A stretch of DNA of 64,000 nt from the NCBI RefSeq assembly GCF_014489635.1, contig NZ_CP060828.1, forward strand, positions 6,160,001-6,224,000, read 5' to 3'. This DNA comes from Streptomyces roseirectus (GTDB taxonomy: Bacteria; Actinomycetota; Actinomycetes; Streptomycetales; Streptomycetaceae). The notes beneath the pieces were generated by a model. That model saw only the letters and a list, made by a program, of their open reading frames with translations, did no database searches and had not been told where the DNA came from. A program made the translations under genes and the position numbers. Positions 41,767 through 59,325 of the stretch are shown in pieces (position 1 is the first letter of the stretch; each line of letters begins with the position of its first letter).

Positions 41767-42014
41767 CGTCCGCCGGTGTGTCGCGTCCGGGCGGTCCGTT
41801 TCTGTGTGCGGGCCGTCCGGGCGTTTTTCTGTGACACGCCGTCAATTCGCTTTACTTGTCTGCGAAGAATCGTTCTGTCACTCCGAAGTGCTGATTATAT
41901 GAATGCGTTCGAGTGAATTCCCGTTCGGCCCATGTTGCTCAGTTTCTTTCGCTGTCTATCTCTCGTTTGCAGCCTGTAGGTCATGGGAGGCATGACCACG
42001 GAGAAGGGAAAGAC

Positions 42015-42242
42015 ATGAAGAAGAGCGCTGCCGTCATCGCGGGCCTGGTACTGGCGCTGGGCGGGGCGGCCCCGGCCTTCGCGGACGCGGGCGCCGAGGG
42101 TGCGGCCATCGGCTCGCCGGGTGTCCTGTCCGGCAACGTCGTCCAGATCCCGGTCCACGTCCCGGTCAACGTCTGCGGCAACACCGTCAACGTGATCGCG
42201 GCCCTGAACCCGGCGTTCGGCAACACCTGCGTCAACGACTGA
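42015..42242 (+). CDS. chpD: Short chaplin
   Basis: A 75-residue short chaplin: signal peptide ending at AFA (residue 23), then one chaplin domain with GSPGVLSGNVVQIPVHVPVNVCGNTVNVI and the C-terminal ALNPAFGNTCVND. The two cysteines form the usual disulfide. Chaplins self-assemble into amphipathic amyloid fibrils that let hyphae leave the water surface. ATG at 42015 with GAGAAGGGAAAG before it; longer upstream frames lack a signal peptide. The name chpD is by position near the rodlins and the long chaplin, from memory of S. coelicolor. Confidence 0.93.
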   Translation: MKKSAAVIAGLVLALGGAAPAFADAGAEGAAIGSPGVLSGNVVQIPVHVPVNVCGNTVNVIAALNPAFGNTCVND

Positions 42243-43487: not shown

Positions 43488-44789
43488 TCAACGCCGTACG
43501 GCGTCCACCGCACCCCGCTCACCACTGCGCCCCGGCGCCGGGACCGCCCCGCCGGGCACGCCCGTGCGCAGCCGGCGCCGTACGCCCCGGACGAGGGTGC
43601 CGGCGGTGAAGGTCGCGCCGTGCACGAAGCGCATCGCGGGGCCGAAGCCGGAGGCGGTGACGAGGCCGGCCAGGAAGAGGCCGGGGCAGGAGGACTCGAA
43701 CTCCCGGCCGACGGCAGGGGATCCGTCGGCCACGGCGGTCAGGGCGCCGCGCAACTCGGGGGAGAGCAGGGCGAGTCGGTCCCGGGTCGCCTTGAAACCG
43801 GTCGCGGCGATGACGTGGTCGGTCTCGACGGTCCGCGTCCTGCCGGAGGCGCCGGTGACCTCCAATCGGAGCTTGCCCGCATCGAGTTGGGCATCACCGG
43901 CGGCCCCGCGCGTCAACTCCCCCTCAACTGCCGTCACTTCATGCCCGAGCAGCACCTCCACTACCCCCTCCACCCGATCCCGGACCCACCAAGCCCCCGC
44001 CGGACCAAGGGCGTTGGCGGCGATCCGGGCGCGCGTCTCCTCCGGCAGGCGCCGGTACCAGCCGGCCCGCTCGGAGTAGAACCAGTTCCGCCAGCCGCAG
44101 CCGAGCCCGCTGTGCGGCGAGCGCAGCGACTGCCACCACGGACGCTCCCAGGGCGGCGGCACGTCGTTCCAGTCGAGGTGGTCCGCGCGGGCCAACACCC
44201 GGACCCGCGTGCCCTGTTCGGCCAGCAGCGCGGCCGTCTCCAGCGCCGCCTGGCCGCCGCCGACGACCGTCACGTCACGGCCCCGGAAGCGGTCGAGGTC
44301 GCTGTGGTGGCTGCTGTGGGAGACGAGGTCGGGGGAGACGCCGTGCAGGGCCGAGGGGATCTCCACGAACGGCATGACGCCGACCGCGAGGGCGACCGTC
44401 CGGGCGTGCACGGTCTCGCCGTCCTCGGTCACCGCCTCGAATCCGCCGACGCGCGGGGAGATGCGGACGATCGTGCGCTCGTCGACCTCGGGGACGGCGT
44501 TGCGGGCGAACCAGAGGCCGTAGTCGGCGAACACCTCCACCGGGATCGGCTCGCCGTGCCGCGCGGAGACGCCCCGGGTGTCGCAGTAGGCGTCGAGCCG
44601 CCAGCGGGCGGCCGGGTCGGACAGGTTGGACGCCCAGGGTTCGGACTTGAGGAACATGCCGCGCGGCATGTGGTCACGCCACGACGCCATCGGCCGCCCG
44701 AAGACGCGCAGGCTCAGCCCGGCGCCCGCCGCATGGGACGCGATGGACAGTCCGTACGGGCCCGCGCCCACCACCAGCAGGTCGAACAT
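43488..44789 (-). CDS. FAD-dependent oxidoreductase / flavin monooxygenase-like protein
   Basis: A 433-residue two-dinucleotide-fold flavoprotein. The FAD-binding site is VVGAGPYGLSIASHAAGAG (residues 6-24), the NAD(P)-binding site VTVVGGGQAALETAALLAEQG (near 167-187), and a late ATGFKATRD motif (near 350) marks this class. PrsW-like SHSSHHSDLDRFRG precedes the second site, typical of lysine/ornithine-N-monooxygenase-like proteins. The start at 44789 overlaps the ATP-grasp gene by ATGA. Substrate unknown; with the ATP-grasp partner it may modify an amino acid or surface glycan. Confidence 0.82.
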   Translation of the reverse strand: MFDLLVVGAGPYGLSIASHAAGAGLSLRVFGRPMASWRDHMPRGMFLKSEPWASNLSDPAARWRLDAYCDTRGVSARHGEPIPVEVFADYGLWFARNAVPEVDERTIVRISPRVGGFEAVTEDGETVHARTVALAVGVMPFVEIPSALHGVSPDLVSHSSHHSDLDRFRGRDVTVVGGGQAALETAALLAEQGTRVRVLARADHLDWNDVPPPWERPWWQSLRSPHSGLGCGWRNWFYSERAGWYRRLPEETRARIAANALGPAGAWWVRDRVEGVVEVLLGHEVTAVEGELTRGAAGDAQLDAGKLRLEVTGASGRTRTVETDHVIAATGFKATRDRLALLSPELRGALTAVADGSPAVGREFESSCPGLFLAGLVTASGFGPAMRFVHGATFTAGTLVRGVRRRLRTGVPGGAVPAPGRSGERGAVDAVRR

Positions 44790-46174
44790 CAGCCGCTCGC
44801 TTTCTCGTCGTCGGTCGGAGGGGACGGAGGGGTTGTAGGGGTTGTAGGGGAAACCCCTGAGCTCCCTGGTTGTGCGGCGCGCCCCGCGCCCGCCGCCTGC
44901 GGTACCCCCTGGGGGAGACCTGTGAGGGACACCGCCGGAGCTACGGCCTGCCGTACCACCCTGGTACGGGCGGTCGTCAGGGTCGCCCCGCCCGTGCGCC
45001 GCAGCCGCTGGGCGATCCGCGTCACGACGTGCCGGCACCACAGCCCCCACATCGCGCGGCCGGGGCCGGGGTCGTCTGGGGCGTGCCAGGCGAGTTCGCG
45101 CCCGTGGGGGGAGGGGCGCAGGGCGGCCAGGGGCGCGTAGTTCTCGACGACGAAGGCGCGGCCGGGGCGGGGCGCGCCCGCGGGGAGGGCGCGGTGGGTC
45201 AGGTCGAGGTGCTGCGCGCGGACCACGTCGAGGCCCGTCGCGTCGGTGAAGAGCCGGAACTGCGCGCCGGGGCGGGGGTTGAAGTCGAGGAGGTGGTAGC
45301 GGCCGGTGGCGGCGCAGCGCCGGAAGTCGAGGTCGAGGATGCCCCGGTAGCCGAGGTCGGCCGTCAGCCGCTCGGCGAGCGAGGTCACCGTCGCGTTCGG
45401 GACCCACTCGCCGACGGCCGTCAGACCCGCCCCGCGCGGCCAGGACAGCAGCTTGCGGCCGGGCCCGCCCGCGCGGACCGCCCCCGCGCGGTCGGCGTAC
45501 CCGTGGAAGAACCAGTCGAGGCCGGTGCCCGGCGCCAGGAACTCCTGGAGCAGCAGCCGGCACCCGGCGTCCTCCGTCCGCAGGTACAGCTCGCGCGCCT
45601 CCTGCGTGGAGCGCAGGACGACCGTGCTGCGCAGCCCGCTCCCGCCGGGCAGCAGCCACGGTCTGCTCCACTTCGCGACGACCGGCAGCCCGAGCCGCCA
45701 CGCGGCCTGCGCCGCCTGCGTCGCGCTCTCCGGGACGACCGTCTCGGGATGCGGGACGCCGGCCGCCCGGCACAGCCCCGCCAGCTCCGCCTTGTCCGCG
45801 ACCCGTTCGGGCAGCTCACCGGGTTGCTGCGGCAGCAGGTACGCGGGCGCCAGCTCCGCGCGCAGCCGGCTGACGGCGACCGCGCCGGCGTCGTCCATCG
45901 GGATGAGCACGGCGGGCCGCTCCACGCGCGCGGCGACCCGCAGCAGGACGGCGGCGATCTCCGCGTCGGCGGCCCCGGGCAGCGGCGGCGGATGCAGGCC
46001 GCGGACGAACCGCGAGCGGCCCACGGGGCTCCCCGTCACGTCCGCGACGAGGTGGACCTCGACCCCGGCGCGGCCGAGCGAGCGCACGGCACCCAGCGTT
46101 CCGTGGTGAAAGGGATTCCGGTCGATCCGCAGCAGCACTGCGGGGACGCGGGTGTCGAGCAGGGGCACGGGCAT
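44789..46174 (-). CDS. ATP-grasp family protein
   Basis: A 461-residue ATP-grasp enzyme, likely a carboxylate-amine or carboxylate-thiol ligase. Visible parts are an N-terminal Rossmann-like region (PAVLLRIDRNPFHHGTLGAVRSLGRAG), the ATP-binding central domain (ADKAELAGLCRAAGVPHPETV, VVAKWSRPW, LLLQEFLAPG), and the metal-binding FNPRPG motif (YHLLDFNPRPGAQFRLF near residue 300). The C-terminal 70 residues are low-complexity. It is the first gene of a two-gene leftward operon with the flavoprotein, and is divergent from the GH26-like gene over a region with a perfect palindrome. Confidence 0.8.
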   Translation of the reverse strand: MPVPLLDTRVPAVLLRIDRNPFHHGTLGAVRSLGRAGVEVHLVADVTGSPVGRSRFVRGLHPPPLPGAADAEIAAVLLRVAARVERPAVLIPMDDAGAVAVSRLRAELAPAYLLPQQPGELPERVADKAELAGLCRAAGVPHPETVVPESATQAAQAAWRLGLPVVAKWSRPWLLPGGSGLRSTVVLRSTQEARELYLRTEDAGCRLLLQEFLAPGTGLDWFFHGYADRAGAVRAGGPGRKLLSWPRGAGLTAVGEWVPNATVTSLAERLTADLGYRGILDLDFRRCAATGRYHLLDFNPRPGAQFRLFTDATGLDVVRAQHLDLTHRALPAGAPRPGRAFVVENYAPLAALRPSPHGRELAWHAPDDPGPGRAMWGLWCRHVVTRIAQRLRRTGGATLTTARTRVVRQAVAPAVSLTGLPQGVPQAAGAGRAAQPGSSGVSPTTPTTPPSPPTDDEKASG

Positions 46175-46271
46175 TCCTTCGGTTCGTTCACCGATGCGGA
46201 CGAATGGACCACTCGAAAGCCGTAACGGCGGTGGCGTACTTCCTTTTCGTATGACTTACATGTGACTGTCT

Positions 46272-46287
46272 GTCAGGAATTCCTGAC
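46272..46287. promoter_or_regulatory. Perfect 16-bp palindrome in divergent promoter region
   Basis: GTCAGGAATTCCTGAC is a perfect inverted repeat between the ATP-grasp gene (leftward) and the GH26-like gene (rightward), 60 bp before the latter's ATG. It is a strong candidate operator for both. CGTAAC at 46222-46227 nearby resembles a BldN -35 element but lacks a matching -10. Confidence 0.6.
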
Positions 46288-46346
46288 GCTGTCATAACGC
46301 GCGAATGGCGCGGTCATCACGCGTGTGAGTGGAGAAAGGAGCAGGC

Positions 46347-47723
46347 ATGACCCCACGAAAGCGACGCGCCCGGTCCCGGCGGCTGGCCGTCGTCGCGACG
46401 GCCGTCGTCGTATCGGCAGCCCTGGCCTCCGGTCCTGGTTTCGCCGCGGGTCCGGGGGTGGTGCAACGCGCCGATCCTCCCGCTCCCGCGTGGTGGGAGA
46501 GCGGCCGGTGGTCGGACGGCTGGTGGGGGGACGACGACGAGGACGCCGCCCAGACGCCCGCGCCGGCCCCCGCGGACCCCGTAGGACCCGTAGTACCTCC
46601 GGGCGACACGACGAGCCCGGCCCCGGTGCCCGCCCCCGTCCCCGCTCCCGCCCCGGCGAAGAAGTACCCCGCTTTCGGCGCCTACCTCGACTACGGCCCC
46701 CGCGGCGTCTCCCGCATGGCCGAGCTGAGCCGCTGGCTCGGCGGCTCGGAGCTGCGGGTCGGCCACACCTACCTGCCGGGCGACCGGTGGAGCAACATCG
46801 AGGGCGCCCCCGGCTTCCTCGACGTGTGGGCGGACTGGCGGCGCGAGAAGGCCGACCGGATGTTCGTCCTCAACGTGCCGATGCTGGAACGCAACGAGGA
46901 GGGCGTGCCCGACGCCGAGGTGCGCCGGATGCTGCGGCAGGGCGCCGCCGGCGAGTTCGATCACCACTTCAAGGCCCTGGCCGAACGCCTCGTCGCCCTG
47001 AAGGTGCCGGACACGGTGATCGTGCTCGGCTGGGAGATGAACGGCATCACGTACACCCATCGGTGCGGTCCGGACCCGGAGTCCTGGAAGAAGTACTGGA
47101 ACAGGATCGTCACCACCATGCGTGCGGTGCCGGGCCAGGAATTCAAGTTCGACTTCACGCCGAGCCGGGGCCGGGACGCCGTTCCGTGGACCCAGTGCTA
47201 TCCCGGTGACGCGACGGTCGACATCGTCGGAATGGACTCCTACGACCAGCCCACCGGCCGGACGTTCGACGAACAGGTGACAGAGCCCTACGGCCTCCAG
47301 GAACACGTGGACTTCGCGAAGTCCCACGGCAAGGCCATCTCCTATCCGGAGTGGGGGCTCTTCCGCAACGGCGACAACCCGGAGTACATGCGGCGCATGC
47401 TCGCCTGGATGGACGAGCACAAGCCGCTCTACAACACCGTCACCGACTACTGCCCGCACGGCGTGTGGCAGTGCGGCTCCAACCCGCGCTCCTCCGAGGT
47501 CTACCGCTCGGTCCTGTCCGGCCGGGTGGACGAGCCGGTGACGCCGGTCGAGCCGCCGGTCGAACCCCCGGTGGTCGTGCCTCCGGTGCAGCCCCCGGTC
47601 GAGCCGCAGCCCGAGCCTCAGCCTCAGCCGAACTGCTCGCCGGTGAACCTCGGCGACTGGGTCGAGCACTGGCTCGGCGGGAAGCTCTGCATCAAGTTCG
47701 ACTGGTTCTCCCGCAACCGGTGA
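46347..47723 (+). CDS. Secreted GH26-like glycoside hydrolase
   Basis: A 458-residue secreted protein with a signal peptide (residues 1-32), a Pro-rich linker (about 70-105), a catalytic TIM barrel, then a second Pro-rich linker and a short C-terminal tail with two cysteines. The candidate acid/base glutamate is in LGWEMNG (Glu230) and the nucleophile in YPEWGL (Glu335), as in GH26 beta-mannanases and related clan A enzymes. GGAGAAAGGAGC precedes ATG at 46347. It lies between the ATP-grasp operon and the polysaccharide gene run, so it could trim the polymer those genes make. Substrate inferred, not shown. Confidence 0.82.
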   Translation: MTPRKRRARSRRLAVVATAVVVSAALASGPGFAAGPGVVQRADPPAPAWWESGRWSDGWWGDDDEDAAQTPAPAPADPVGPVVPPGDTTSPAPVPAPVPAPAPAKKYPAFGAYLDYGPRGVSRMAELSRWLGGSELRVGHTYLPGDRWSNIEGAPGFLDVWADWRREKADRMFVLNVPMLERNEEGVPDAEVRRMLRQGAAGEFDHHFKALAERLVALKVPDTVIVLGWEMNGITYTHRCGPDPESWKKYWNRIVTTMRAVPGQEFKFDFTPSRGRDAVPWTQCYPGDATVDIVGMDSYDQPTGRTFDEQVTEPYGLQEHVDFAKSHGKAISYPEWGLFRNGDNPEYMRRMLAWMDEHKPLYNTVTDYCPHGVWQCGSNPRSSEVYRSVLSGRVDEPVTPVEPPVEPPVVVPPVQPPVEPQPEPQPQPNCSPVNLGDWVEHWLGGKLCIKFDWFSRNR

Positions 47724-47730
47724 CGGCGCC

Positions 47731-47787
47731 GGTGACGGCGGGCCCGCCTGAGAACCTGCGGCCAGGCTCTCAGGACCCGCCGTCACC
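47731..47787. terminator. Convergent terminator overlapping acetyltransferase stop
   Basis: GGTGACGGCGGG (47731-47742) pairs with CCCGCCGTCACC (47776-47787), with an inner CCTGAGA/TCTCAGG stem. It overlaps the last codons of the leftward GNAT gene and follows the GH26-like gene by 7 bp. Confidence 0.8.
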
Positions 47788-48876
47788 GGACCGCTCCCTG
47801 AAGGACTCCCAGCGGTGCAGCAGCTCCTTGCCGCGCCGCCGGGCCGCCACGTCGCACAGCGCCGCCGACAGCAGCGGCGCCGTGCGCCGCCGGGCCAGCA
47901 ACAGCCGCTGGTTGACGACGGGTTCGGGCCGCCAGTGGTGCTTGTACGGCTCGTTGCCGCGCAGCAGGCTCAAGGCCCCGCGCGTCCGCTCCCGGGTGTG
48001 CTCGGCGCACGCGTCCAGCAGCATCACCGCGACGTCCGCCTTCCGCTCCCGCAGCCTCGGATGCGCCCCGTACAGATAGCCCCCGGCCAACTCCCGTGAC
48101 AGCAGCGTGAGATCGACGGCGACGACGTCGTCGTCCAGCCGGAACTCGGTCACCACCGCGTCGCCCGAGCGCACCATCGGGCCGACCGACCTCACCAGGT
48201 GCTCGCAGAACCGCTGTCGCAGGTGCTCGGACGTCACCTTCCGGCCCTGCCACTGGAGTCGGTGCAGTTCCAGCAGGCGGCGCAGCGCCCCGTCCACCTC
48301 GTCCGGCGCGACGGCGCTGCGCTCGACGCCGAGCGAGGTCAGCTTGCGCAGCTTGGCGCGTACCCGCTGCGCCTTCGCCGACGGCAGCCGCGCGACCAGT
48401 TCCTCCATCGGGACGGCCGGCAGCTCCAGGCACACCGAGTCGCCGACCCGCCGCCTCGGCCCGCGCCAGTGCTCGTACACCCGCTCGACGGCGCCCCCCG
48501 GACGCACCTCGCGGAAGTCGATCAGCGCCGTGCGGGCCGCCGCCGCGAGCCCTTCGGTGAGCGCGACGACGGCCTCCTCGGCGCGCTCGTCGTCGACCAG
48601 GACGTCCCCGTAGTCGGAGATCGCCCCGCCCAGCGGCACCAGCGCGGGCAGCGGAGCGCGGACGGCCATCAGGGGCGCGACGGCGAGGAGTTGGCCGTCC
48701 GCCGCGCGCACGAGCAGCAGGCGCAGTCGGCCGCGCCTGCCGTACGAGAGCCACCAGGAGTGCAGCCAGGCGTGGCTCTGGAACGGGGTCGCCGTCGCAC
48801 AACGCCCGTACAGGTCGGCCCAGTCGGCGGCCAGCGCCGCGAACTCGGCCTCGTCCGTGACCAGTTCGGCCCTCAT
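47770..48876 (-). CDS. GNAT/CelD-like acetyltransferase of the exopolysaccharide cluster
   Basis: A 368-residue protein of the BioF2-like/FemAB-like GNAT superfamily often found in exopolysaccharide operons. It has a pair of GNAT folds: PFQSHAWLHSWWLSYG near residue 31, LLLVRAADGQLLAVAPLM near 53, then DVTSEHLRQRF-type helix and FRLDDDVVAVDLTLLSRELAGGYLYGAHPRLRERK (near 248-282), ending in SLLRGNEPYKHHW. Last gene of the leftward run, and overlaps the chain-length-type gene by 4 bp. It may acylate an amino sugar. Confidence 0.8.
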   Translation of the reverse strand: MRAELVTDEAEFAALAADWADLYGRCATATPFQSHAWLHSWWLSYGRRGRLRLLLVRAADGQLLAVAPLMAVRAPLPALVPLGGAISDYGDVLVDDERAEEAVVALTEGLAAAARTALIDFREVRPGGAVERVYEHWRGPRRRVGDSVCLELPAVPMEELVARLPSAKAQRVRAKLRKLTSLGVERSAVAPDEVDGALRRLLELHRLQWQGRKVTSEHLRQRFCEHLVRSVGPMVRSGDAVVTEFRLDDDVVAVDLTLLSRELAGGYLYGAHPRLRERKADVAVMLLDACAEHTRERTRGALSLLRGNEPYKHHWRPEPVVNQRLLLARRRTAPLLSAALCDVAARRRGKELLHRWESFRERSGDGGS

Positions 48877-49760
48877 CGCGCGCCGCGAGTGTCGGCGGCG
48901 AGGGCCGGGCCGGGGACGGGGGCGGCGGTCTTGGCGTCGTCGGGGGCGGCGGAGGAGGCGGTGGCGGCGGAGGTGTTGGCGGTGCCGGTGACACCGGCCG
49001 AGCCGGAGCCTCGCCCGGCCCGCCCCGCGTCGGCCCCCCGGCCTGCTCCGGCCGCCTTGCCGCCGCCGGCCGCCCTGCCTGCCCCAACTGCCTTGCTCTC
49101 CCCGCCTGTTCCGGCGGCCTCGTCCACCTCAGCCGCCCCCGCCGCTCCCGCCGCCCCGAACACCCCGTCAGCCCCGGCCCCCCGCCCCCGCTTGGGCCGC
49201 ACCAGCAGCACCAGCCCCCCCAGCAGCCCGCCCGCGCTCGCGCCGACCAGTCCGGTGACCGCCGGGGACTGCGAGGACGGCTCCGTCGGCTTCATCGCCC
49301 GTGCGAACGACTGGAGTTCGACGTTGGTGGTCTTCTCGGTGCCCTTCGCGTGCTGGGTCAGCGCCCGCGACACCGCGTTGGCCATGTCGGCGGCGAGGTC
49401 GGCGCGCCCCGAGGTCGCGGTGATCGAGACCATCGGCGCGTCCGGCGAGGTCGCCGTCCGCACGCTCGTCCGGAGCGTGTTCACCGGCACCCCGGCCCAG
49501 ACCTGCGCGTCCCCGAGCACCGCGAGCTGCGTCGCGACCCGGCCGTACGCCTGCGCGAAGCCCAGCGCGGAGGAGGGGTCGGACTTCTCGGCGGGGACGG
49601 CGACGACGTACGCGGTCGCCGTGTAGACGGGCGGCTTCAGCAGGCCGTACGAGCCGCCGGCCAGGCCGCCGACGAGGGCGCCGGCGGCGATCAGGGTCCA
49701 GGGCGGGAGGGCCTTGGCGCGGGCGAGGACGGCGGGGCGGCGGGAGGTGTTCTCGGTCAT
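48873..49760 (-). CDS. Wzz/chain-length-determinant-like membrane protein
   Basis: A 295-residue protein with the polysaccharide co-polymerase layout: an N-terminal helix (WTLIAAGALVGGLAGGSYGLL, residues 21-41), an extracytoplasmic domain rich in helix (DLAADMANAVSRALTQHAKGTEKTT), and a second helix (VTGLVGASAGGLLGGLVLLV, near 170-189). The C-terminal 100 residues are Ala/Gly-rich. No BY-kinase domain is present. These proteins set polymer length together with a Wzy polymerase. The start overlaps the glycosyltransferase gene as ATGA. Confidence 0.8.
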   Translation of the reverse strand: MTENTSRRPAVLARAKALPPWTLIAAGALVGGLAGGSYGLLKPPVYTATAYVVAVPAEKSDPSSALGFAQAYGRVATQLAVLGDAQVWAGVPVNTLRTSVRTATSPDAPMVSITATSGRADLAADMANAVSRALTQHAKGTEKTTNVELQSFARAMKPTEPSSQSPAVTGLVGASAGGLLGGLVLLVRPKRGRGAGADGVFGAAGAAGAAEVDEAAGTGGESKAVGAGRAAGGGKAAGAGRGADAGRAGRGSGSAGVTGTANTSAATASSAAPDDAKTAAPVPGPALAADTRGAR

Positions 49761-50890
49761 GTGGCGGTGGCTTTCTGGGGTGACGGGACGGAAAGGGTGG
49801 TCGTGTAGACGTCCATGAGCCGCGCGGCGCTGCGGGCGATGTCGTAGTGGCGGGCGGCCTCGGGCGGGGTGCGCGGGCCGCAAGTCGGGGGCCGGACCAA
49901 GGACTTGGCGAACGCCTCGGCGCTGCACGGGACTTGACGGGCGTCCGGCGCCTGCGACGGCAGGTCCTCGACCGCCGGGCACGACGCGTACCGCACCGGC
50001 AGCCCGGACGCCAGCGCCTCAACCACCGCCAAGCCAAAGGCTTCTTCGGGGGACGGCGACGCCAGGACGTCCATCGCGGACGTCAGCGACGGCAGGTCGG
50101 GGCCGGGGCCGCCGTCCGGGACGTACGGGCGCTCGCCGGTGAACAGGACGCGGTCGGCCACCCCGGCGTCGTGCGCGGTGCGCCGCAGCACGCTCTCCTC
50201 GGGACCGCCGCCGACCAGCAACAGCCAGTGGTCGTCCGGGAGTTGGGCCAGCGCCTCGATGACGACGTCGAAACGTTTCCCGGCGCTGAGGCGGCCGATG
50301 CCGCCGATCACGTACGCGTCCTCCGGCAGGCCCAGGCGGCGGCGGGTGCGGTGGCGGGCCACCGGGTCGAAGCGGAAGCGGGCCAGGTCGATGCCGTTCG
50401 GGACGACCTCGATGCGCGGTCCCGGCACGCCCCAGCGGCGCAGGCGGTCGGCGACCGTGGGGGAGACGGCGACCGTCGAACGGCCCAGCCGCTCACTCGC
50501 CAGGTACAGCGCGCGCACACCCCTGCTGAGGCCGCGGCCCTCCATCTGCGAGTCGCCCAGGGAGTGTTCGGTCGCGACGATCGCCTTCACCCCCGCGAGC
50601 CGGGCCGCGATCCTCCCGTACACGCAGGCGCGGTAGAGGTGGGTGTGGACGAGGTCGTAGCCGCCGTCCCTGATGTGCTTCACCAGCCTCGGCAGGGCGC
50701 CGAGATCCCGGTTGCCGGACATGCCGAGGTGCGTGACCCGGACGCCGTCCGCGATCAGCCCGTCGGCGACCGGGCCCGGGTTGGTGAGCGTGACGACGTC
50801 GCAGTCGACCGGCAAGTGCCGGATCAACAGCCGCAGTTGCTGCTCGGCGCCGCCGACGCCGAGGCCCGTGATGATGTGCAGCGCCCGCAT
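49757..50890 (-). CDS. Glycosyltransferase family 4
   Basis: A retaining GT-B glycosyltransferase of 377 residues. N-terminal motif GLGVGGAEQQLRLL (residues 8-21) and HTHLYRACVYGRIAARLAG, linker region with VVPNGIDLARF, and the donor site SPSPEEAFGLAVVEALASGLPV (near 280-301) with the two glutamates spaced by seven. It adds a sugar to the lipid-linked repeat unit. The ATG at 50890 or the GTG one codon upstream could be used; both overlap the deacetylase stop. Sugar and linkage unknown. Confidence 0.9.
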   Translation of the reverse strand: MRALHIITGLGVGGAEQQLRLLIRHLPVDCDVVTLTNPGPVADGLIADGVRVTHLGMSGNRDLGALPRLVKHIRDGGYDLVHTHLYRACVYGRIAARLAGVKAIVATEHSLGDSQMEGRGLSRGVRALYLASERLGRSTVAVSPTVADRLRRWGVPGPRIEVVPNGIDLARFRFDPVARHRTRRRLGLPEDAYVIGGIGRLSAGKRFDVVIEALAQLPDDHWLLLVGGGPEESVLRRTAHDAGVADRVLFTGERPYVPDGGPGPDLPSLTSAMDVLASPSPEEAFGLAVVEALASGLPVRYASCPAVEDLPSQAPDARQVPCSAEAFAKSLVRPPTCGPRTPPEAARHYDIARSAARLMDVYTTTLSVPSPQKATAT

Positions 50891-51630: not shown

Positions 51631-53797
51631 GGGCTGCCAGCCTTCGGGATGCGGAACGGGCGGATCGGAGGACGGGGTCGACCCCCTGGGCGTCCAGCGC
51701 CCAGCCGAGGACGAGGAAGACGGCGGTCACGGTCAGCCCTCCGGCCACCGCGCCCGTCAGCGGACCCCCCTGGACATGGCCGGCCGCGTACGTGCCGAGG
51801 ACCGTCGCGACCAGCGCGGCCCGCACCGGCCTGCTCAACTCCCGCAGCACGCCCCGGACATGGACCGGGACGCTCCTCGGGCCGAGACCCGCGAGCAGGA
51901 CCAGCGCGGTGACGGTGATGCCGGCCGCGTTCGCCGCGGCGATGCCGGTGACCCCCCAACCGCCCACGGTCAGCGCGCCGATCCACGACGTCACCACGAT
52001 CCCCACGGCCATCGCGCCCACCGGGTACCAGCTCGCGCGGCCCGCCGAGAAGTACGAGCGGACCACGACGCCGGTGAGGGTCTGCCCCAGCAGGCCCAGC
52101 GCGTACACGCGCATCACCTGCGCGGTGGCGGCCGTGTCCTCGGAGGTGAACGCGCCTTTCTGGAACAGGAGTTGGATGATCTGCGGGGCGCACGCCACGA
52201 TCGCCGCCGTGCCCAGCAGGACGACGCAGGTCGCCAGCGCCAGGTCGCTCTCCACGCGCTTGCGGGCCCGCTCGGTGTCGCCCTCCGCGAGTGCCCGCGC
52301 GACCACCGGGAACGTCACGGTGACCAGCATCATCGACAGCAGCATCGGCATCTGCGCCACTTTCTGGGCGTAGTTGAGATGCGAGATGGCCCCCTCCGGG
52401 AGGCGCGAGGCGAGGAACCGCTCGATCAGCACCTGCGACTGGCGGCACAGCGCGAACAGCAGCACGGTCGCCAGCAGCGCCACGTCCAGCGCCTGCGGCT
52501 CCTGCTCCCCGCGCTTCTCCCGCAGCGCGGCCTTGCTGGTCAACTGCTTCAGCAGCGACGGCAGTTGGACGAGGACCATCAGCACGCCGCCGACCGCCAC
52601 GCCGACCGCCGCCGACCGCACCCCCCACCGGCCGCCCAGCACGAACATCCCGGTGATGATCCCGACGTTGTACGCCACGTAGATCGCCGCCGGCGCCCCG
52701 AACTTCCGGTGCGCCCGCAGCGCGGCGCTGCAGTACCCGGCGAGCCCGAAACTGACGACACAGGTCGCCGTGAGCCGCGTGCAGTCGACGGCGAGCCGCG
52801 GGTCGGGCAGCCCCGGCGCCAGCGCTCCCACCACCTGCGGCGCCAGCCCGATGACCAACGCCCCCACGCCGACGAACGCCAGCGACAGCTTGGGCAGCGT
52901 CCCCGCGACCAGCGCCCGCACCGGATCCCCCGACACCCCCCTCGCCCGGCTCGCCAACGCCGCACTGAACGCCGGGATCAACGCGAACGCCATCCCGTCC
53001 TCGATCAGCAACGTCGCCGCGAACTCCGGCACCGTCCACGCCACCAAGAACGCGTCCGTCTCCTCCCCCGCCCCGAACAACCGCGCCAACGCCTGATCCC
53101 GCACCAGCCCGAGCAACGACCCCGCGACCGAGAGAACCGCCGTGAGCACGGCCGCCTTGGCGAGGAACTTCCCGCTGGGATGCGAACCGGCACCCGAGCG
53201 GGCGGAGTTCTCCTGGCCGACGCCGGGAGCGACCAAGGCGCCCCTCCGTTCACCGGCGGGGGTGCTATCCGCAGCGTGGTTCTGTCCGCCGGTGAGGCTG
53301 GCGCCTGAGGCGCGCTCCCGTTCGCCGGCGAGCACGGTGTCGGAGGCGCGCTCCTGCGTGGCGGCAAGTGCGGCGGGCGCGGCGTGTTCCCGGTCGCTGG
53401 GGGGATTGACGGGGGCGCGACGTCGTTCGCCGGCGGGGGCGGCGTCTGCGGCGTGGTTCTGTCCGCCGGCGAGGTCGGCGCCTGAGGCGCGCTCCCGTGC
53501 GGTGGCAAGAGCGGCGGACGAGCTCCGGTCCCGCTCGCCGGTGGGCGCCCCGGACAGGTGGGACGGCCCGCTGGAGTCACCGGCACCGAGGCCCGTGTCG
53601 ATCGCCGGGGAGAGGGGGTGCTCGGGGGCCGGCTCGCCGGGGCCGACGCGCTCCGCGCCCGCCTCGTCGCCGGGCGTCCCGTCATCCCCCGCGCGCACAT
53701 CGGCCTCCGCTGCGTCGCCCGACCGCACGGACGGCACCGGCGCGGCTTCCCGCGCTGTGCCGTCCGTCCGGGGGGTCCGGGAGGGAGTCACCGTCAT
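51614..53797 (-). CDS. MurJ/MviN-family lipid flippase with long disordered N-terminus
   Basis: A 727-residue multi-pass protein. From about residue 190 it is a MurJ/Wzx-like MOP flippase: KAAVLTAVLSVAGSLLGLVRDQALARLFGAG, then a dozen or more helices with LLFALCRQSQVLIERFLASRLP and NYAQKVAQMPMLLSMM. In a polysaccharide operon it likely flips the lipid-linked repeat unit. The first 190 residues are a low-complexity Ala/Gly/Pro/Arg tail in which a block with GGQNHAAD(A/S)(A/T)PAGERR occurs twice. The start at 53797 overlaps the ligase gene as ATGA. An upstream shadow frame is ignored. Confidence 0.88.
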   Translation of the reverse strand: MTVTPSRTPRTDGTAREAAPVPSVRSGDAAEADVRAGDDGTPGDEAGAERVGPGEPAPEHPLSPAIDTGLGAGDSSGPSHLSGAPTGERDRSSSAALATARERASGADLAGGQNHAADAAPAGERRRAPVNPPSDREHAAPAALAATQERASDTVLAGERERASGASLTGGQNHAADSTPAGERRGALVAPGVGQENSARSGAGSHPSGKFLAKAAVLTAVLSVAGSLLGLVRDQALARLFGAGEETDAFLVAWTVPEFAATLLIEDGMAFALIPAFSAALASRARGVSGDPVRALVAGTLPKLSLAFVGVGALVIGLAPQVVGALAPGLPDPRLAVDCTRLTATCVVSFGLAGYCSAALRAHRKFGAPAAIYVAYNVGIITGMFVLGGRWGVRSAAVGVAVGGVLMVLVQLPSLLKQLTSKAALREKRGEQEPQALDVALLATVLLFALCRQSQVLIERFLASRLPEGAISHLNYAQKVAQMPMLLSMMLVTVTFPVVARALAEGDTERARKRVESDLALATCVVLLGTAAIVACAPQIIQLLFQKGAFTSEDTAATAQVMRVYALGLLGQTLTGVVVRSYFSAGRASWYPVGAMAVGIVVTSWIGALTVGGWGVTGIAAANAAGITVTALVLLAGLGPRSVPVHVRGVLRELSRPVRAALVATVLGTYAAGHVQGGPLTGAVAGGLTVTAVFLVLGWALDAQGVDPVLRSARSASRRLAAHVRSR

Positions 53798-55107
53798 CGG
53801 GTGGTGGCCCTCTCCGAAGCGGTGTGGCCGGCCAGGGCCCACCAGGCGATCAGGCCCAGGCAGATGGCCGTGAGGACGGTGGAGGGGCCGCCGATGTCGG
53901 CGTACATGAAGTCGGTGAGTTGCCAGACGGAGAGGCCGCAGGCGATCAACGCGCAGTCGAGGAAGGGGTGTTGGCGGGTGCGGGTGCGCAGGAGGTTGCG
54001 GAGGGCGCAGGTGAGGAGGGCGAGCCAGCAGCCGGCCAGGGCGAGGAGGCCGAGTAGGCCCTGTTCGCTGAGGATCAGGAGGTACATGTTGTGGGGGGAG
54101 AGCAGCGGCTGCTTGACGTAGGCCGAGCCCGCCCCCTCGGTGTCGCTGCCGGAGGAGAGCGCCAGCGACGCGTGGGCGTCGCGGTGTTCGGGGAAGCCCT
54201 TCAACCCGACGCCGGTCAGGGGCTGTTCGCGCCACATGTCGAGGGCGGCGGCCCACATGGTGTACCGGTCGGTGACGGACTGGTCCGGCGTACCGGTGAC
54301 CTGGGTGATGCTGCTGACCCGCTCCTGGAGCATCGCGGAGCCGACCCCGAACCCGCCGACGAGGACGACCCCGAGGGCGGCCACGACCGCCCCCGCCTTG
54401 AGGGCCCTGCGCAGCCCGGCCAGCACCAGCTGGACCGTGCACGTCAGCGCCGTCGCGATCCAGGCCCCCCGGCTGAAGGACAGCGCCAGCGGAATGAGCA
54501 GCGCCCCCGCGCAGACCGCGGCGATCACCCGTTCCCGGGCGACGGTCCGCCCCAGCGCCAGCCCCACCGCGCAGATCAGCCCGAAGGACACGACGGTCGC
54601 CATCCCCATCACGTCCTGCGGCCCGAACGTGCCCACGGCCCGGATCTCCTCGCCCTGGTAGGACGCCCCGGTGTGCGTGACGAACTGGTGCACGCCGACG
54701 GCCCCCTGCCACCCGGCGAGGCCGACGAACGCCCAGGCCAGCAGCCGGAAGTCACGGGCGTCCCGGATCAGCAGCAGGACGGCCGCCGGCACCAGCACGA
54801 AGACCTGGAGGTAGCGGCCGAGCCCGGACATCCCGGCGCCCGCCGAGGCCGCGCCGAGCGCCGCGAGCGTCAGCCCCGCGACCGGCATCCCGAACAGCAC
54901 GGCGGCCCGCAGGGACAGCGGCCGGGCCCGCCGCCGCAGGAGCCGGACGACGCAGAAGAGGACGACGAGCGCGGAGAGCGCGTCGGCGGGCCCCGCACCC
55001 CCCTCGCCGCCGGGCGCGACGGGCAGGGCGACGAGCGCGATCACGGCGGCGACCGGCAGCACCGGCGACCAGGACCGGGGCGGGGCGAGGGGCAGGGCGA
55101 GGGCCAT
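53794..55107 (-). CDS. O-antigen ligase/polymerase-like (Wzy type) membrane protein
   Basis: A 437-residue protein with about a dozen hydrophobic helices and one large extracytoplasmic loop (QVTGTPDQSVTDRYTMWAAALDMWREQPLTGVGLKGFP, about 265-302, then SPHNMYLLILSEQGLLGLL). This is the Wzy_C/O-antigen ligase pattern, in which the H-N-x-x-L-x-x-L-x-E-x-G motif recurs. It would polymerise or ligate the repeat unit. The start at 55107 fits, with 5 bp to the upstream sugar transferase stop. Confidence 0.87.
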   Translation of the reverse strand: MALALPLAPPRSWSPVLPVAAVIALVALPVAPGGEGGAGPADALSALVVLFCVVRLLRRRARPLSLRAAVLFGMPVAGLTLAALGAASAGAGMSGLGRYLQVFVLVPAAVLLLIRDARDFRLLAWAFVGLAGWQGAVGVHQFVTHTGASYQGEEIRAVGTFGPQDVMGMATVVSFGLICAVGLALGRTVARERVIAAVCAGALLIPLALSFSRGAWIATALTCTVQLVLAGLRRALKAGAVVAALGVVLVGGFGVGSAMLQERVSSITQVTGTPDQSVTDRYTMWAAALDMWREQPLTGVGLKGFPEHRDAHASLALSSGSDTEGAGSAYVKQPLLSPHNMYLLILSEQGLLGLLALAGCWLALLTCALRNLLRTRTRQHPFLDCALIACGLSVWQLTDFMYADIGGPSTVLTAICLGLIAWWALAGHTASERATTR

Positions 55108-55112
55108 CGGCG

Positions 55113-56513
55113 TCAGCTCCCGGTCGGACGGACGAAGGCGGCGGCCGTGCGCAGCAGGATGCAGACGTCCTGCCACAGCGACCAGTTGTCGATGTACGCG
55201 TTGTCGAAGCGGGCCCGGTCCTCGATCGAGGTGTCCCCGCGCAGCCCGTTGATCTGGGCCAGCCCGGTGATCCCGACCCGCATCCGGTGCCGGGCCGCGT
55301 AACCGGGGTACGTCTGGCTGAACTGCCCGACGAAATAAGGCCGTTCGGGACGCGGCCCGACGAGGCTCATGTCCCCGCGCAGCACGTTCCACAGCTGCAG
55401 CAGCTCGTCCAGCGAGGTCTGCCGCAGGAACCGGCAGAACCGGCTCATCTCCCGCTCCCCGGCGACGCTCCACCGCGTCGCGGCCTCGTGGTCGTCGGCG
55501 GGCCGGTACGTGCGGAACTTCAGCAGCGTGAACGGCCGCCCGTCCTTGCCGATCCGCTCCTGCCGGAACACCACCCCGGGCCCGTCGGTGAGCCGCAGCA
55601 CGATCGCGCACACCAGCAGCAGCGGGCTGATCAGCAGCAGCAGCGTCCCGGACACGGCGACGTCCAGCAGCCGCTTCCCGGCGCTGCCCCGCCGCCGCAG
55701 CCCGAGGTCGACGGGCCGGCGCGGGTACCCGGCGAGATGGTCGCGCGAGCCGTGCGACGGCGACTCGGCGTCGACCTCCCACACCGCGCACCCCGACTCG
55801 GCGAGCGCCCGCAGCAGCGGCGCCTGCTTGACCCGGACGGCCGGGTCGACGCACAGGATGTCCCGCACCCCGTTCTGCACGACCGCCCGCTGGACGTCCT
55901 GACCGGTCGTCAGAACCGGCAACTGGCCGCCGGAGCCGCCCTGTTCGGCGACGATCCCGACCGGCTCCACCCCGCACCGGGGATGCCGCAGGACGGCGGC
56001 GGCGACCCGCTGGGCGGTGGCGGCGGGGCCCACGACGAGCGCGGCGCGCGGACGCCGGGCCAGCAGCCGCCGGCGCCGGTAGTGCACCAGCGACCGACCG
56101 AGGCAGGCGGCGCCCGCCTGAGCGGCGCACCCGGCCCCGAGCGTCGCCCAACTCAGCGCGTCGGCGGGCGAGTTCGCGGCGACCAGGGTGGCCAGCGCCA
56201 GCCAGGCCACCGCGATCCGCCCGCACACGGCGGGGAGTTCGTCCAGCACCCCGGCGACGGGCCGGGCCCGCTGGGGCCGCAGGAGTATCGTCGCCGCCAC
56301 CAACGCCCCGACCAGCAGCGGCCTGCGCTGCGCCTCGGCCAGCGCCGGGAGCCCGGCGGCGACGGCGGCGAAGTCGGCCAGCAGCAGCGGCAGCGGCGAG
56401 GGCGGCCGCGCGGAGGGCCGCCGGACCGGGAACCGGAACCCCGTGCCGCTCTCGCGGCGGGGCATGACGGAGACGGGTGAACCGGGGGAGGGGACGGTGC
56501 TTTCGGCGGTCAC
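55113..56513 (-). CDS. Initiating sugar-phosphate transferase (WbaP/WcaJ-like)
   Basis: A 466-residue polyprenol-phosphate sugar-1-phosphate transferase. The N-terminal half has helices and a nucleotide-binding-like region (RAALVVGPAATAQRVAAAVL). The C-terminal catalytic domain, from about residue 280 (KRLLDVAVSGTLLLLISPLLL), holds QERIGKDGRPFTLLKFRT, LRQTSLDELLQLWNVLRGDMSLVGPRP and ITGLAQINGLRGDTSIEDR, the PF02397 signature. It starts repeat-unit assembly on the lipid carrier. GTG at 56513 overlaps the upstream stop as GTGA. Confidence 0.92.
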   Translation of the reverse strand: MTAESTVPSPGSPVSVMPRRESGTGFRFPVRRPSARPPSPLPLLLADFAAVAAGLPALAEAQRRPLLVGALVAATILLRPQRARPVAGVLDELPAVCGRIAVAWLALATLVAANSPADALSWATLGAGCAAQAGAACLGRSLVHYRRRRLLARRPRAALVVGPAATAQRVAAAVLRHPRCGVEPVGIVAEQGGSGGQLPVLTTGQDVQRAVVQNGVRDILCVDPAVRVKQAPLLRALAESGCAVWEVDAESPSHGSRDHLAGYPRRPVDLGLRRRGSAGKRLLDVAVSGTLLLLISPLLLVCAIVLRLTDGPGVVFRQERIGKDGRPFTLLKFRTYRPADDHEAATRWSVAGEREMSRFCRFLRQTSLDELLQLWNVLRGDMSLVGPRPERPYFVGQFSQTYPGYAARHRMRVGITGLAQINGLRGDTSIEDRARFDNAYIDNWSLWQDVCILLRTAAAFVRPTGS

Positions 56514-57688
56514 GAGTGGATGGACTCCCTGCACTCGGTGGGCTCGACGCGCGGCAACGGCCGCTCGCCGCCGAGGAGTTCGCGGTAGAGGTCCGCGATC
56601 GCCCCGGCGGTGTGCCGCACGTCGTGTGTGGACAGGACGTGCCGGCGGCCCCGGGAGCCGAGGGACGCGCGCAGCGAAGGGTCGAGCAGCAGGCCGGTGA
56701 CCGCGCCGGCCAGCGCGGCGGGCTCCCCGGACGGCACCAGGCACCGGTCGGCGAGCGCGGCCGGCAGGCTCTCGCGGGCGCCGTCCACATCGCTCACCAC
56801 CACCGGCCGACCGCACGCCATCGCCTCCAGCGGGGCGAGCGCCATGCCCTCCCAGCGGGACGGCAGGACGACCAGGTCGGCGGCCCGGTACCAGGGCGCG
56901 GTGTCCTCGACGGCCCCGGCGAACGTCACCGACTCCGGTGCCCGCGCGGCGAGTCGAGCCCGGTCGGGGCCGTCGCCGACGAGCACCAGCCGGGCCCCGG
57001 GAACCTCCCGGACGACCGTCTCCCAGGCCGCGAGCAGCACGTCCTGCCCCTTCTGCCGGCACAGCCGCCCCACGCACACCACGAGCGGCGCGGCCGACTC
57101 GACGCCGGGCAGCAGGGCGGCGCGGACGGCGTCCGCGGGTGCGGGGCGGAAGCGGCCGGTGTCGATGCCGTTGGGGACCACCCGGTAGTGCCCGGCGATC
57201 CCGGCCCGCTGGCCGGTCGCCTGCTCGGCGGCGCTCACGCACACCAGCCGCTCGGCCCAACGCGCCCCGAAACGCTCCCAGTTGACGGCGAAGGCGGCCA
57301 TGGCCCCGTCGACCGCCTCGAACGACCAGGCGTGCGGCTGGAACACCGTCGGCACCCGCCCGCGCACCGCGAGGCGCCCGGCGAGGCCGGCCTTCGCGGA
57401 GTGCGCGTGCACCAACTCCGGCCGCACGTCCCGCAGTACGCGCGTCAGGCGCCGCACCTCGCCCCAGAGCGAGGGCCCCGGCGCCCGCGCCGCCTCCCAG
57501 CGGCGCACGACGGCCCCGAGCGCGGCCAGGTCGGCGGCGAGCGGACTGTCGGGGACGGCGACCGTGACGTGGTACCCGGCCGCGAGCTGAGCCATCGTCA
57601 GATCCCGGACGACGCGGGCGACTCCGCCGTCCACGGGCTGGGCGACGTGCAGGACCCGGGGGCCGGCTTCGGGCACTGGCTGGTGCAT
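56510..57688 (-). CDS. Glycosyltransferase family 4
   Basis: A 392-residue GT-B enzyme. N-terminal VDGGVARVVRDLTMAQLAAG, VHAHSAKAGLAGRLAVRG, then VPNGIDTGRF and the donor site SRWEGMALAPLEAMACGRPVVVSDVDG (near 300-326). It adds a sugar after the initiating transferase. It starts 54 bp after the DUF3344-like gene and overlaps the next gene by 4 bp, so it is part of the same run. Sugar unknown. Confidence 0.91.
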   Translation of the reverse strand: MHQPVPEAGPRVLHVAQPVDGGVARVVRDLTMAQLAAGYHVTVAVPDSPLAADLAALGAVVRRWEAARAPGPSLWGEVRRLTRVLRDVRPELVHAHSAKAGLAGRLAVRGRVPTVFQPHAWSFEAVDGAMAAFAVNWERFGARWAERLVCVSAAEQATGQRAGIAGHYRVVPNGIDTGRFRPAPADAVRAALLPGVESAAPLVVCVGRLCRQKGQDVLLAAWETVVREVPGARLVLVGDGPDRARLAARAPESVTFAGAVEDTAPWYRAADLVVLPSRWEGMALAPLEAMACGRPVVVSDVDGARESLPAALADRCLVPSGEPAALAGAVTGLLLDPSLRASLGSRGRRHVLSTHDVRHTAGAIADLYRELLGGERPLPRVEPTECRESIHS

Positions 57689-57742
57689 TGCGCGGTTTCC
57701 TCGCTCACGGACGACGCTCGGGACGGGCGGGAACGCGCCTGA

Positions 57743-58819
57743 CTACTGCCGGGCGTCGACGGCGACGAAGAGCGCGCCGGCCCACGCCGCGTCCCGGGAG
57801 GAAACGAGACGGAAGGCCGCCTGGTCACCACCGCGCCGCAAACCCTCGCTCAGATCGAACACGTCGGAGTCGTAGCCGAGGGTGCTCGCGTACGCCGGTT
57901 CACGCGCCGCCGGAGCCTCCCCCGGCTCGCTGATCGTGGAGTTCAGTACGTCGTCGCCCGGATTCGCGGCGTCGGAGAGCCGTGTCGAGCGGCCGGCGCC
58001 CGTCGAAAGGACGAGCGAGTCACCCGTTCGGCCGGGGTCACCGTTGTAGGCCACGAGCCCGGCGTACCCGCCCGCGTGCGCCGCCAGCGCGCGCCCCTTG
58101 AGTGTCACTTCGTGCCCCCGCTTGCCGTTCAGGGTGTCGAAGCCGTCCCAGAGGGAGAGGTGGCGGAGGGGTTCGTTCCGATTGTCGTACGCCACGACGA
58201 GCGTCCACCCGCCCCAGGCGCCGGCCTTCGACTTCCCCATCGCCACGTTGACTTGTGCGACCGTGTAGAGCCCCGCGCCGCTCTCCCGGACGAGCTTGGT
58301 GACGTCGGCGGACGCCTGGAAGGCGTCGGCGCCGCCCGCGACACGGTGGCCGGTGACGGTGTCGGCGAGCAGCGCCTTGTAGGAGCCGCCGGGTTCGGCG
58401 ATCAGCACCCGGCCGTTGTCCTTCGGCGGCTTCTGCTCGCCCACGCGCAGGTTGCCGCCCCAGTAGAGGCGGGCGTACGTGACGCGCGAGCCCTCGGGGA
58501 GGCGGACCTCGGCGCGGGAGGAGTTGTAGGTGTTGGGGTCGTCGTCGACGTCGACGTAGAACATGTCGAAGTCCCCGTTGGCGGCCGGGAGTCCGGCCCG
58601 TACCTCGGCGCAGCCGGCCGTCTCGGCGCGGCAGGTGATCGAGGTGTTGGCGGCGCGGACGATGCCGCCGTGCCGGGTGGCGCGGTAGCGCTCGGCGAAG
58701 GGGAGGACGCTCGCCTCGGCGGCCGGGGCGGCGAGCGCCGGGTGCGAGGTCCAGAGGGTGGCGAGGGCGACGGCGCCCACCGTCGCGCGGCGCAGCAGCG
58801 GAGCCAGAGGAGTGGGCAT
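57743..58819 (-). CDS. Secreted DUF3344-like protein heading the polysaccharide run
   Basis: A 358-residue exported protein. The signal peptide runs from MPTPLAPLLRRATVGAVALATLW to about residue 32. The body has blocks such as RLPEGSRVTYARLYWGGN, DVTKLVRESGAGLYTVAQVN, GGWTLVVAYDN and RGHEVTLKGR, resembling a DUF3344-type surface protein family by recall; no catalytic motif is visible. It lies 54 bp upstream of the first glycosyltransferase on the same strand, and may be the first gene of the operon. ATG at 58819 gives the clear signal peptide. Confidence 0.72.
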   Translation of the reverse strand: MPTPLAPLLRRATVGAVALATLWTSHPALAAPAAEASVLPFAERYRATRHGGIVRAANTSITCRAETAGCAEVRAGLPAANGDFDMFYVDVDDDPNTYNSSRAEVRLPEGSRVTYARLYWGGNLRVGEQKPPKDNGRVLIAEPGGSYKALLADTVTGHRVAGGADAFQASADVTKLVRESGAGLYTVAQVNVAMGKSKAGAWGGWTLVVAYDNRNEPLRHLSLWDGFDTLNGKRGHEVTLKGRALAAHAGGYAGLVAYNGDPGRTGDSLVLSTGAGRSTRLSDAANPGDDVLNSTISEPGEAPAAREPAYASTLGYDSDVFDLSEGLRRGGDQAAFRLVSSRDAAWAGALFVAVDARQ

Positions 58820-58909
58820 GACCGGCGTGGCCCTTTCGGGGAACCTGCGGCGGCGAGTCCGCAGTGCGATTTGCTGGCTTATAGGGGTGGCTCGGATGGG
58901 CCGCAACTC

Positions 58910-58927
58910 TAGTCCGTATTCGGACTA
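58910..58927. promoter_or_regulatory. Perfect inverted repeat upstream of polysaccharide run and chaplin
   Basis: TAGTCCG (58910-58916), TATT, CGGACTA (58921-58927). It lies between the leftward DUF3344-like gene and the rightward chaplin, 90 bp from the former start. It is a candidate operator; the regulator is unknown. Confidence 0.55.
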
Positions 58928-58997
58928 ATCCGGTGATAGCCGGGCAAGTGTGTCGGAATGGTGAAAGCGGCCGGTCGGCACATCACCCCATTGGCCG

Positions 58998-59025
58998 CAC
59001 AACCAGCGGCGGCGCCACGCGTTGA
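58998..59025 (+). promoter_or_regulatory. Sigma-BldN-like promoter of chaplin
   Basis: CACAAC (58998-59003), a 16-bp spacer, and CGTTGA (59020-59025). The -10 is identical to the consensus I recall, and the -35 matches in four of six. It lies 60 bp before the chaplin ATG. Confidence 0.6.
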
Positions 59026-59085
59026 CACAGCGCTGGGCATCCCCGCCCGGATGTTTGTGTCAAATCCTCCAAGGAGCACCTCTCC

Positions 59086-59325
59086 ATGTCGCGTATCGCG
59101 AAGGGCCTGGCCCTCACCACCGTTGCCGTAGCGGCCGTCGCCGGCGCCTCCGGCGTCGCCGCCGCCGACAGTGGCGCGCAGGGTGTCGCCGAGCACTCCC
59201 CGGGCGTGCTGTCGGGCAACGTCGTCCAGGCCCCGATCCACGTGCCGGTCAACGTCTGCGGCAACTCCGTCGACGTCATCGGCCTGCTGAACCCGGCCTT
59301 CGGCAACACCTGCGTCAACGACTGA
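59086..59325 (+). CDS. chpF: Short chaplin
   Basis: A 79-residue short chaplin with a signal peptide ending near AAA-DSG (residue 27), then HSPGVLSGNVVQAPIHVPVNVCGNSVDVIGLLNPAFGNTCVND. The two cysteines and all family positions are present. CAAGGAG lies 9-14 bp before the ATG. The name chpF follows its place between the polysaccharide genes and the tyrosinase, as I recall from S. coelicolor. It has its own BldN-like promoter and terminator. Confidence 0.93.
   Translation: MSRIAKGLALTTVAVAAVAGASGVAAADSGAQGVAEHSPGVLSGNVVQAPIHVPVNVCGNSVDVIGLLNPAFGNTCVND

Follow-up and report, generated by a model that had tools for sequence, protein, structure and literature searches.

A conserved Wzx/Wzy-type polysaccharide cassette linked to chaplin genes in Streptomyces: a candidate source of a developmental surface glycan

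A 64,000-nt stretch of Streptomyces roseirectus DNA (GCF_014489635.1, NZ_CP060828.1 positions 6,160,001-6,224,000; hereafter the window, numbered from its first letter) carries a gene cassette of the Wzx/Wzy type among chaplin and rodlin genes. Its anatomy and conservation make it very probable that the cassette serves to synthesize and export a sugar polymer. We favor, with somewhat more confidence than doubt, the view that it represents a conserved actinomycete locus for a developmental surface polysaccharide, and that this locus is older than its linkage to chaplins.

Frames, translations and start candidates delineate a compact run of nine leftward genes between 58819 and 47770, and junctions, Pfam and NCBIfam matches bear out the first-pass annotation, which had proposed nine such genes with overlaps or short gaps. 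All on the minus strand, they encode an exported DUF3344 protein (57743-58819; PF11824, 29.7 bits, cut-off 27.2), a conserved GT4 glycosyltransferase, GT4a (56510-57688; PF13692/PF13439), an initiating polyprenyl-phosphate sugar-phosphate transferase (PGT; 55113-56513; PF02397 Bac_transf, 201 bits), a Wzy-like polymerase or O-antigen-ligase family membrane protein (53794-55107; PF04932 Wzy_C, 70 bits, cut-off 31.7), a MurJ-family flippase with a variable N-terminal extension that we propose as a Wzx analogue (51614-53797; PF03023, 220 bits), a CE4 polysaccharide deacetylase (50890-51630; PF01522 Polysacc_deac_1, 97 bits), a second conserved GT4 enzyme, GT4b (49757-50890; PF13439), a Wzz-like chain-length protein (48873-49760) and a CelD-like GNAT (47770-48876; PF13480 Acetyltransf_6, 87 bits). 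A 54-bp gap separates DUF3344 from GT4a (57743/57688); the following junctions are a 4-bp overlap (GT4a/PGT, 56510/56513), a 5-bp gap (PGT/Wzy, 55113/55107), a 4-bp overlap (Wzy/flippase, 53794/53797), a 17-bp overlap (flippase/CE4, 51614/51630), 1-4 bp (CE4/GT4b, 50890/50890-50893) and 4 bp each at GT4b/Wzz (49757/49760) and Wzz/GNAT (48873/48876). Five of the nine genes passed a codon-position filter; PGT, Wzy, flippase and Wzz are absent from it because their longest frames begin too far upstream, and these four were placed by overlap and homology. The Wzz and GNAT starts, at which no ribosome-site-like sequence was seen, rest on the 4-bp overlaps. Beyond GNAT lie a secreted GH26 glycoside hydrolase on the opposite strand (46347-47723, plus; PF02156, 27.4 bits, cut-off 20.2) and then, on the minus strand, an ATP-grasp protein (44789-46174) and an FAD/NAD(P)-binding flavoprotein (43488-44723; PF13738, PF07992). 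The whole block sits between chaplins, and these flanks too are as first annotated.

Family membership supports a polymerization pathway. The PGT scores 322.7 bits against TIGR03025 (NCBIfam, cut-off 295.55), as expected of a Wzx/Wzy priming transferase, and the PF04932 match identifies a Wzy-type protein, a family in which polymerase and ligase are inseparable by sequence. The CE4 protein keeps its TFDDG and SHG..H motifs, and the GH26 protein is genuine, with the family fold and both catalytic glutamates. For the flippase, the Pfam matches listed include the MurJ family and none of the PST/Wzx type; it reaches 234.6 bits against TIGR01695 (cut-off 235.55), and a better-scoring MurJ is encoded elsewhere in the genome, at 4.94 Mb. 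The earlier statement that Wzx/Wzy pathways use exactly these parts thus holds for the type of cassette but is slightly too strong, because the flippase is of the MurJ family rather than the usual Wzx (PST). An XrtA/PEP-CTERM exopolysaccharide cluster was considered and rejected: models of that system ranked first for, or appeared among the matches of, four proteins, at scores far below cut-off (TIGR03088, 118 and 113.6 of 409.05; TIGR03097, 56.6 of 188.1; TIGR03019, 22 of 260.35).

The cassette is widespread and nearly invariant within Streptomyces. Among 150 genomes drawn evenly from the genus, the polymerase was matched in at least 110, a lower bound because in two of the negatives, G046 and G113 (loci L145 and L146), the contig breaks off after the first part of the operon, so that their polymerase may just be unassembled. 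We then read gene order in 120 loci, comprising 80 named loci nearest to the query and 40 chosen among lower-identity positives (the two sets may share species), of which 103 had enough flank. The order GT4a-PGT-Wzy-Wzx-CE4-GT4b-Wzz is preserved in 102 of the 103, more than expected by chance; the comparison across Streptomyces suggested at first pass yields seven core genes in fixed order; the remaining locus shows GT4a, PGT and Wzy only. GH26 accompanies 97 of the ordered loci (76 + 13 with GNAT, 8 without), four have GNAT and no GH26 in the stretch, and one has neither. Among the loci without GH26, in L163, L166 and L172 the gene is cut by the end of the fetched stretch or sits immediately outside it. 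Across genomes, GH26 follows the polymerase, being found in 106 of 110 polymerase-positive versus 5 of 40 polymerase-negative genomes. Seven genomes (G004, G015, G025, G041, G076, G098, G143) also carry a second GH26 paralog, ~9-13 kb away from the polymerase and on its other flank relative to the first, and S. roseirectus has a further copy at 4.65 Mb. DUF3344 is often lost or partial, with matches in 61 of 150 genomes, some of them partial or distant; in four genomes that keep the polymerase (G016, G080, G084, G110) only its C-terminal part is matched.

Linkage to chaplins is likewise real and widespread in Streptomyces. In 98 loci that had 9.3 kb or more on each side, a chaplin lies within ~10 kb of the polymerase in 86 (52 of 58 named and 34 of 40 divergent loci) and not in the other 12; by an estimate from chaplin places, ~1% of the S. 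roseirectus genome falls within 10 kb of a chaplin. Among the 80 named loci, 41 have a chaplin that diverges from the operon across a common intergenic region. GH26 is oriented opposite to the operon in most loci; in a second group, made up of divergent loci, it is co-directional and ~3 kb beyond GNAT. A co-directional chaplin directly follows GNAT in 12 of 16 loci viewed (L147, L150, L152, L162-L169, L172), preceded in nine of the 12 by a BldN-like box discerned by eye. Which end of the operon chaplins occupy therefore differs between groups. In the window itself, a short chaplin at the chpF position (59086-59325, plus; PF03777, 101.6 bits) diverges from the operon, while on the far side are a short chaplin (41895-42239, plus; a stop-to-stop frame) and a long, repeat-bearing one that has an LAHTG sorting-type signal (42412-43383, plus; PF03777, 82 bits). 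Another chaplin stands at the window edge (63778-63999, minus), adjoined by a tyrosinase-domain gene (62830-63696).

The intergenic region upstream of the operon (58820-59085, operon on the minus strand) contains a conserved operon promoter that differs from the BldN-like promoter of the neighboring chaplin (58998-59026, plus; two mismatches to the sigma-BldN consensus). A BldN-like dyad precedes the chaplin in 38 of the 41 loci where operon and chaplin share the intergenic region, and the conserved block on the relatives' operon strand is GACAC-N-TAGAGT, so that the absence of BldN sites there is seen indirectly. Of 42 operon-strand sequences, counting that of the window, 29 contain TAGAGT (1.5 expected by shuffling), and in 23 of those 29 it is preceded by GACAC at 41-43 bp (0.26 expected; ~42 bp in the window), although the loci are related and these counts are thus inflated rather than independent. 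The block is retained in four of seven loci without a DUF3344 match, so its target seems to be the operon rather than just DUF3344. The WhiA motif is described as GACAC (PMC3781837), and its position upstream makes the operon a candidate member of the WhiA regulon. A perfect inverted repeat, TAGTCCGTATTCGGACTA, overlies the operon promoter at 58910-58927 and is not conserved in the relatives scanned. The divergent GH26/ATP-grasp intergenic region (46175-46346) has a conserved element of its own, TGAC-N5-GTCA, of the TGACACTCAGTCA type, with 8-mers in ~30 of 49 sequences.

Three neighboring genes, at 39053-39460 (minus), 40733-41131 (minus; 86% identity to the first) and 41356-41766 (plus; 78% identity to the first), are taken to be rodlins; a Pfam search of the three gave no match, and homologs of the first occur in 111 of the 150 genomes. 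Between two of them lies a gene missing from the first-pass description, a predicted LytR-CpsA-Psr (LCP) glycopolymer ligase (39584-40639, minus; PF03816, 147 bits). At least 13 further genomes of the 150 have an LCP homolog within ~15 kb of the polymerase, and in 12 of 13 fetched loci it is flanked by two rodlins, all co-directional (the exception, L195, shows no rodlin). With S. roseirectus and G081, the latter placed from coordinates alone, the rodlin-LCP-rodlin order occurs in at least 14 of 150 genomes, all polymerase-positive (p = 0.010). Elsewhere in the window, a large frame at 30374-33106 has a weak, below-cut-off match to a disaggregatase repeat.

Genomes lacking the polymerase match may offer a view of cassette loss. 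Seven such places were fetched, selected by DUF3344 or chaplin marks rather than at random; two are the contig-end cases G046 and G113, and the other five, on long contigs, keep cassette pieces beside chaplins. The remnants comprise DUF3344, PGT, GT4b and flavoprotein (L119); the same four plus Wzz (L120); DUF3344, GT4a, part of the flippase, CE4, GT4b, part of GNAT, GH26, part of ATP-grasp and the flavoprotein (L121); DUF3344, a flippase piece and ATP-grasp (L122); and GT4a between two chaplin groups (L141). All five agree with decay of the cassette in place.

Outside Streptomyces the linkage is missing from most loci fetched. A family sample, which included Streptomyces, gave polymerase matches in 90 of 121 genomes and 6 of 17 genera, and a class sample in 25 of 246 genomes: 20 from Streptomyces, four clear ones from a single other family, and a weak one. 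Thirteen non-Streptomyces loci were fetched, nine from the same family and four from the other; 11 have no chaplin in 20 kb (~10 kb either side), namely seven of the nine (genera g3, g10, g11 and g14) and all four of the other family. Both g7 loci have the cassette flanked by chaplins. PF03777 matches exist somewhere in all 13 genomes, although in three of the four from the other family all are weak, the best scoring 30-42 bits, and in G177, of the same family, the nearest chaplin is 43 kb from the cassette. All 11 chaplin-free loci retain PGT, Wzy, flippase, CE4, GT4b, Wzz, GT4a and GH26. In the other family, GT4a follows Wzz and ATP-grasp and flavoprotein genes adjoin the cassette in all four loci, and GNAT is not shown in three. 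Protein searches point to Kitasatospora for g14 and Planomonospora for two of the other-family genomes, with further polymerase homologs in Planobispora and Nonomuraea. Because the core cassette stands without a nearby chaplin in these 11 loci, it is separable from chaplin linkage and probably older than it. The first-pass annotation had held that its view would be refuted if most species with chaplins lacked the cluster or had it at another place, a pattern that does not occur within Streptomyces and does occur in the loci fetched from other genera.

What, then, is the polymer for? Most likely it forms part of the surface of developing Streptomyces hyphae or spores, as linkage, promoter motifs and analogy suggest, and an aerial-surface role is the best single reading, albeit one with clear counter-evidence. 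Chaplins (PF03777 matches) are kept in 40 of 40 polymerase-negative Streptomyces genomes, and rodlins do not co-occur with the polymerase (79 of 110 positives versus 32 of 40 negatives, p = 0.40). The operon strand of the window has no BldN-type site within three mismatches of the consensus, a search under which weak sites are possible. TAGAGT is absent from 13 of the 42 intergenic sequences, GACAC is very common (~15,000 copies in S. venezuelae; PMC4850268), and the relatedness of the loci and the chaplin-free loci of other genera weigh in the same direction. Two of the assigned parts are also weak matches, the Wzz-like protein scoring 22.4 bits against PF02706 (cut-off 25.5) and the ATP-grasp protein falling below the cut-off of PF13549. 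The original proposal that the polymer is made with or for the aerial-hypha sheath thus keeps its support from chaplin linkage and is otherwise tentative, given the chaplin-bearing negatives, the independent rodlins and a promoter unlike the BldN-like one of the neighboring chaplin.

Much of this counter-evidence would suit a general exopolysaccharide or capsule for vegetative growth or adhesion, whose chaplin neighborhood is inherited order with no shared role: the cassette is unlinked in most other-genus loci, rodlins are indifferent to it, and its promoter carries a TAGAGT box resembling a housekeeping one and lacks a BldN box. We regard this as possible if doubtful, since chaplin linkage extends to divergent Streptomyces loci, chaplins precede the operon in some groups and follow it in others, and the polymerase-bearing lineages are sporulating genera. 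The rodlin-flanked LCP gene, accompanied by the polymerase in all 14 genomes where it was seen, raises the prospect of a teichuronic-acid-like secondary wall glycopolymer, attached to peptidoglycan by LCP proteins and serving wall shape rather than an outer sheath; the 11 LCP proteins reported for S. coelicolor could serve elsewhere (PMC11481543). This is unlikely, as an LCP gene lies near the polymerase in few genomes (at least 14 with rodlins and one without), and the secreted GH26 and exported DUF3344 protein suggest an outer, turned-over polymer. Very unlikely is a role for the O-antigen-ligase-like protein as an O-oligosaccharyltransferase that glycosylates chaplins, rodlins or the DUF3344 protein: the Wzy_C family includes such enzymes, and there is the weak TIGR03097 (O-glycosylation ligase) match noted above and one to TfpM (23 of 600), but both scores are far below cut-off and a Wzz-like partner in 102 of 103 loci fits polymerization. 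The MurJ scores of the flippase might even suggest a second lipid II flippase in a cluster that modifies spore-wall peptidoglycan. That proposal is hardly credible, for in those same 102 loci the protein is accompanied by a priming sugar-phosphate transferase and by a Wzy_C protein, and the genome encodes the better-scoring MurJ elsewhere.

If the cassette does make a developmental surface polysaccharide, its family assignments would imply that a repeat unit is begun by the Bac_transf enzyme on undecaprenyl phosphate, lengthened by both GT4 enzymes and flipped by the MurJ-family protein, after which the Wzy_C protein would polymerize it to a length set by the Wzz-like protein. The CE4 deacetylase, GNAT and ATP-grasp protein may modify the sugars, and co-occurrence suggests that the secreted GH26 trims or releases the cassette's own polymer. 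In Streptomyces, the locus would have joined the chaplin/rodlin island, and in some species the LCP ligase encoded between rodlins could attach the polymer to peptidoglycan. A bolder version, which we consider rather unlikely, makes the rodlet/chaplin coat of the aerial hyphae a glycan-amyloid composite in which a modified, GH26-trimmed polysaccharide is under WhiA-type developmental control and, in rodlin-LCP-rodlin species, is anchored to peptidoglycan by the dedicated LCP protein as a base for rodlin and chaplin assembly. Most descriptions present the sheath as an amyloid protein coat, and papers refer to it as a hydrophobic sheath consisting of chaplins and rodlins. An almost invariant polysaccharide cassette among the sheath genes of much of Streptomyces is thus a testable candidate for the coat's sugar component, and may supply a hitherto unstudied sugar part of the water-repellent coat of aerial filaments.

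None of the literature matches listed is a study of the cassette itself, and its MurJ-family flippase and location in a chaplin island are unusual among such clusters. Other Streptomyces hyphal surface glycans, those of CslA/GlxA and MatAB, are described with roles in tip growth or aggregation and are made by other genes. Those pathways are of the synthase type. The ebosin (ste) exopolysaccharide cluster of Streptomyces sp. 139 encodes a Wzz protein as well as a galactosyltransferase, but it has 27 ORFs, a DasABC-like transporter and a DasR-type regulator, and the text available mentions no chaplin link (PMC8902715). By analogy, the nearest described systems are the wps and imp clusters of Actinoplanes missouriensis, compared here (wps-1, wps-3 and imp) by described domains rather than by sequence; the available portions of their descriptions do not mention chaplins (PMC13390465, PMC12691653). 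The wps-1 cluster, required for normal sporangia, has Wzx-, Wzy- and Wzz-type proteins and a GH26 hydrolase, to which the Wzy and GH26 proteins, the proposed Wzx analogue and the Wzz-like protein of the S. roseirectus cassette would correspond, whereas it has GT2, GT26, two sulfotransferases and a flippase of another domain (IPR050833), and CE4 and Bac_transf genes are not named in the passages describing it (PMC13390465). The wps-3 cluster has GT4, Wzx, Wzy, Wzz, a polysaccharide deacetylase, a BioF2-like acetyltransferase and an FAD-binding monooxygenase; it differs in an aminotransferase, and the same source does not list GH26 or a priming transferase for it, its abstract reporting sporangium defects for wps-1 and gsf only (PMC13390465). 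The imp cluster, which makes the sporangium matrix, resembles the cassette as a developmental matrix polysaccharide locus with a Wzx/Wzy-like pathway, GT4 enzymes and an adjacent hydrolase gene, gimB; its hydrolase is GH5 according to a figure legend, its Wzy candidate is Alg6/Alg8-like, and it comprises only four glycosyltransferases and three membrane proteins (PMC12691653). Overall, the cassette may tie aerial development in Streptomyces to the polysaccharide matrices of Actinoplanes sporangia.

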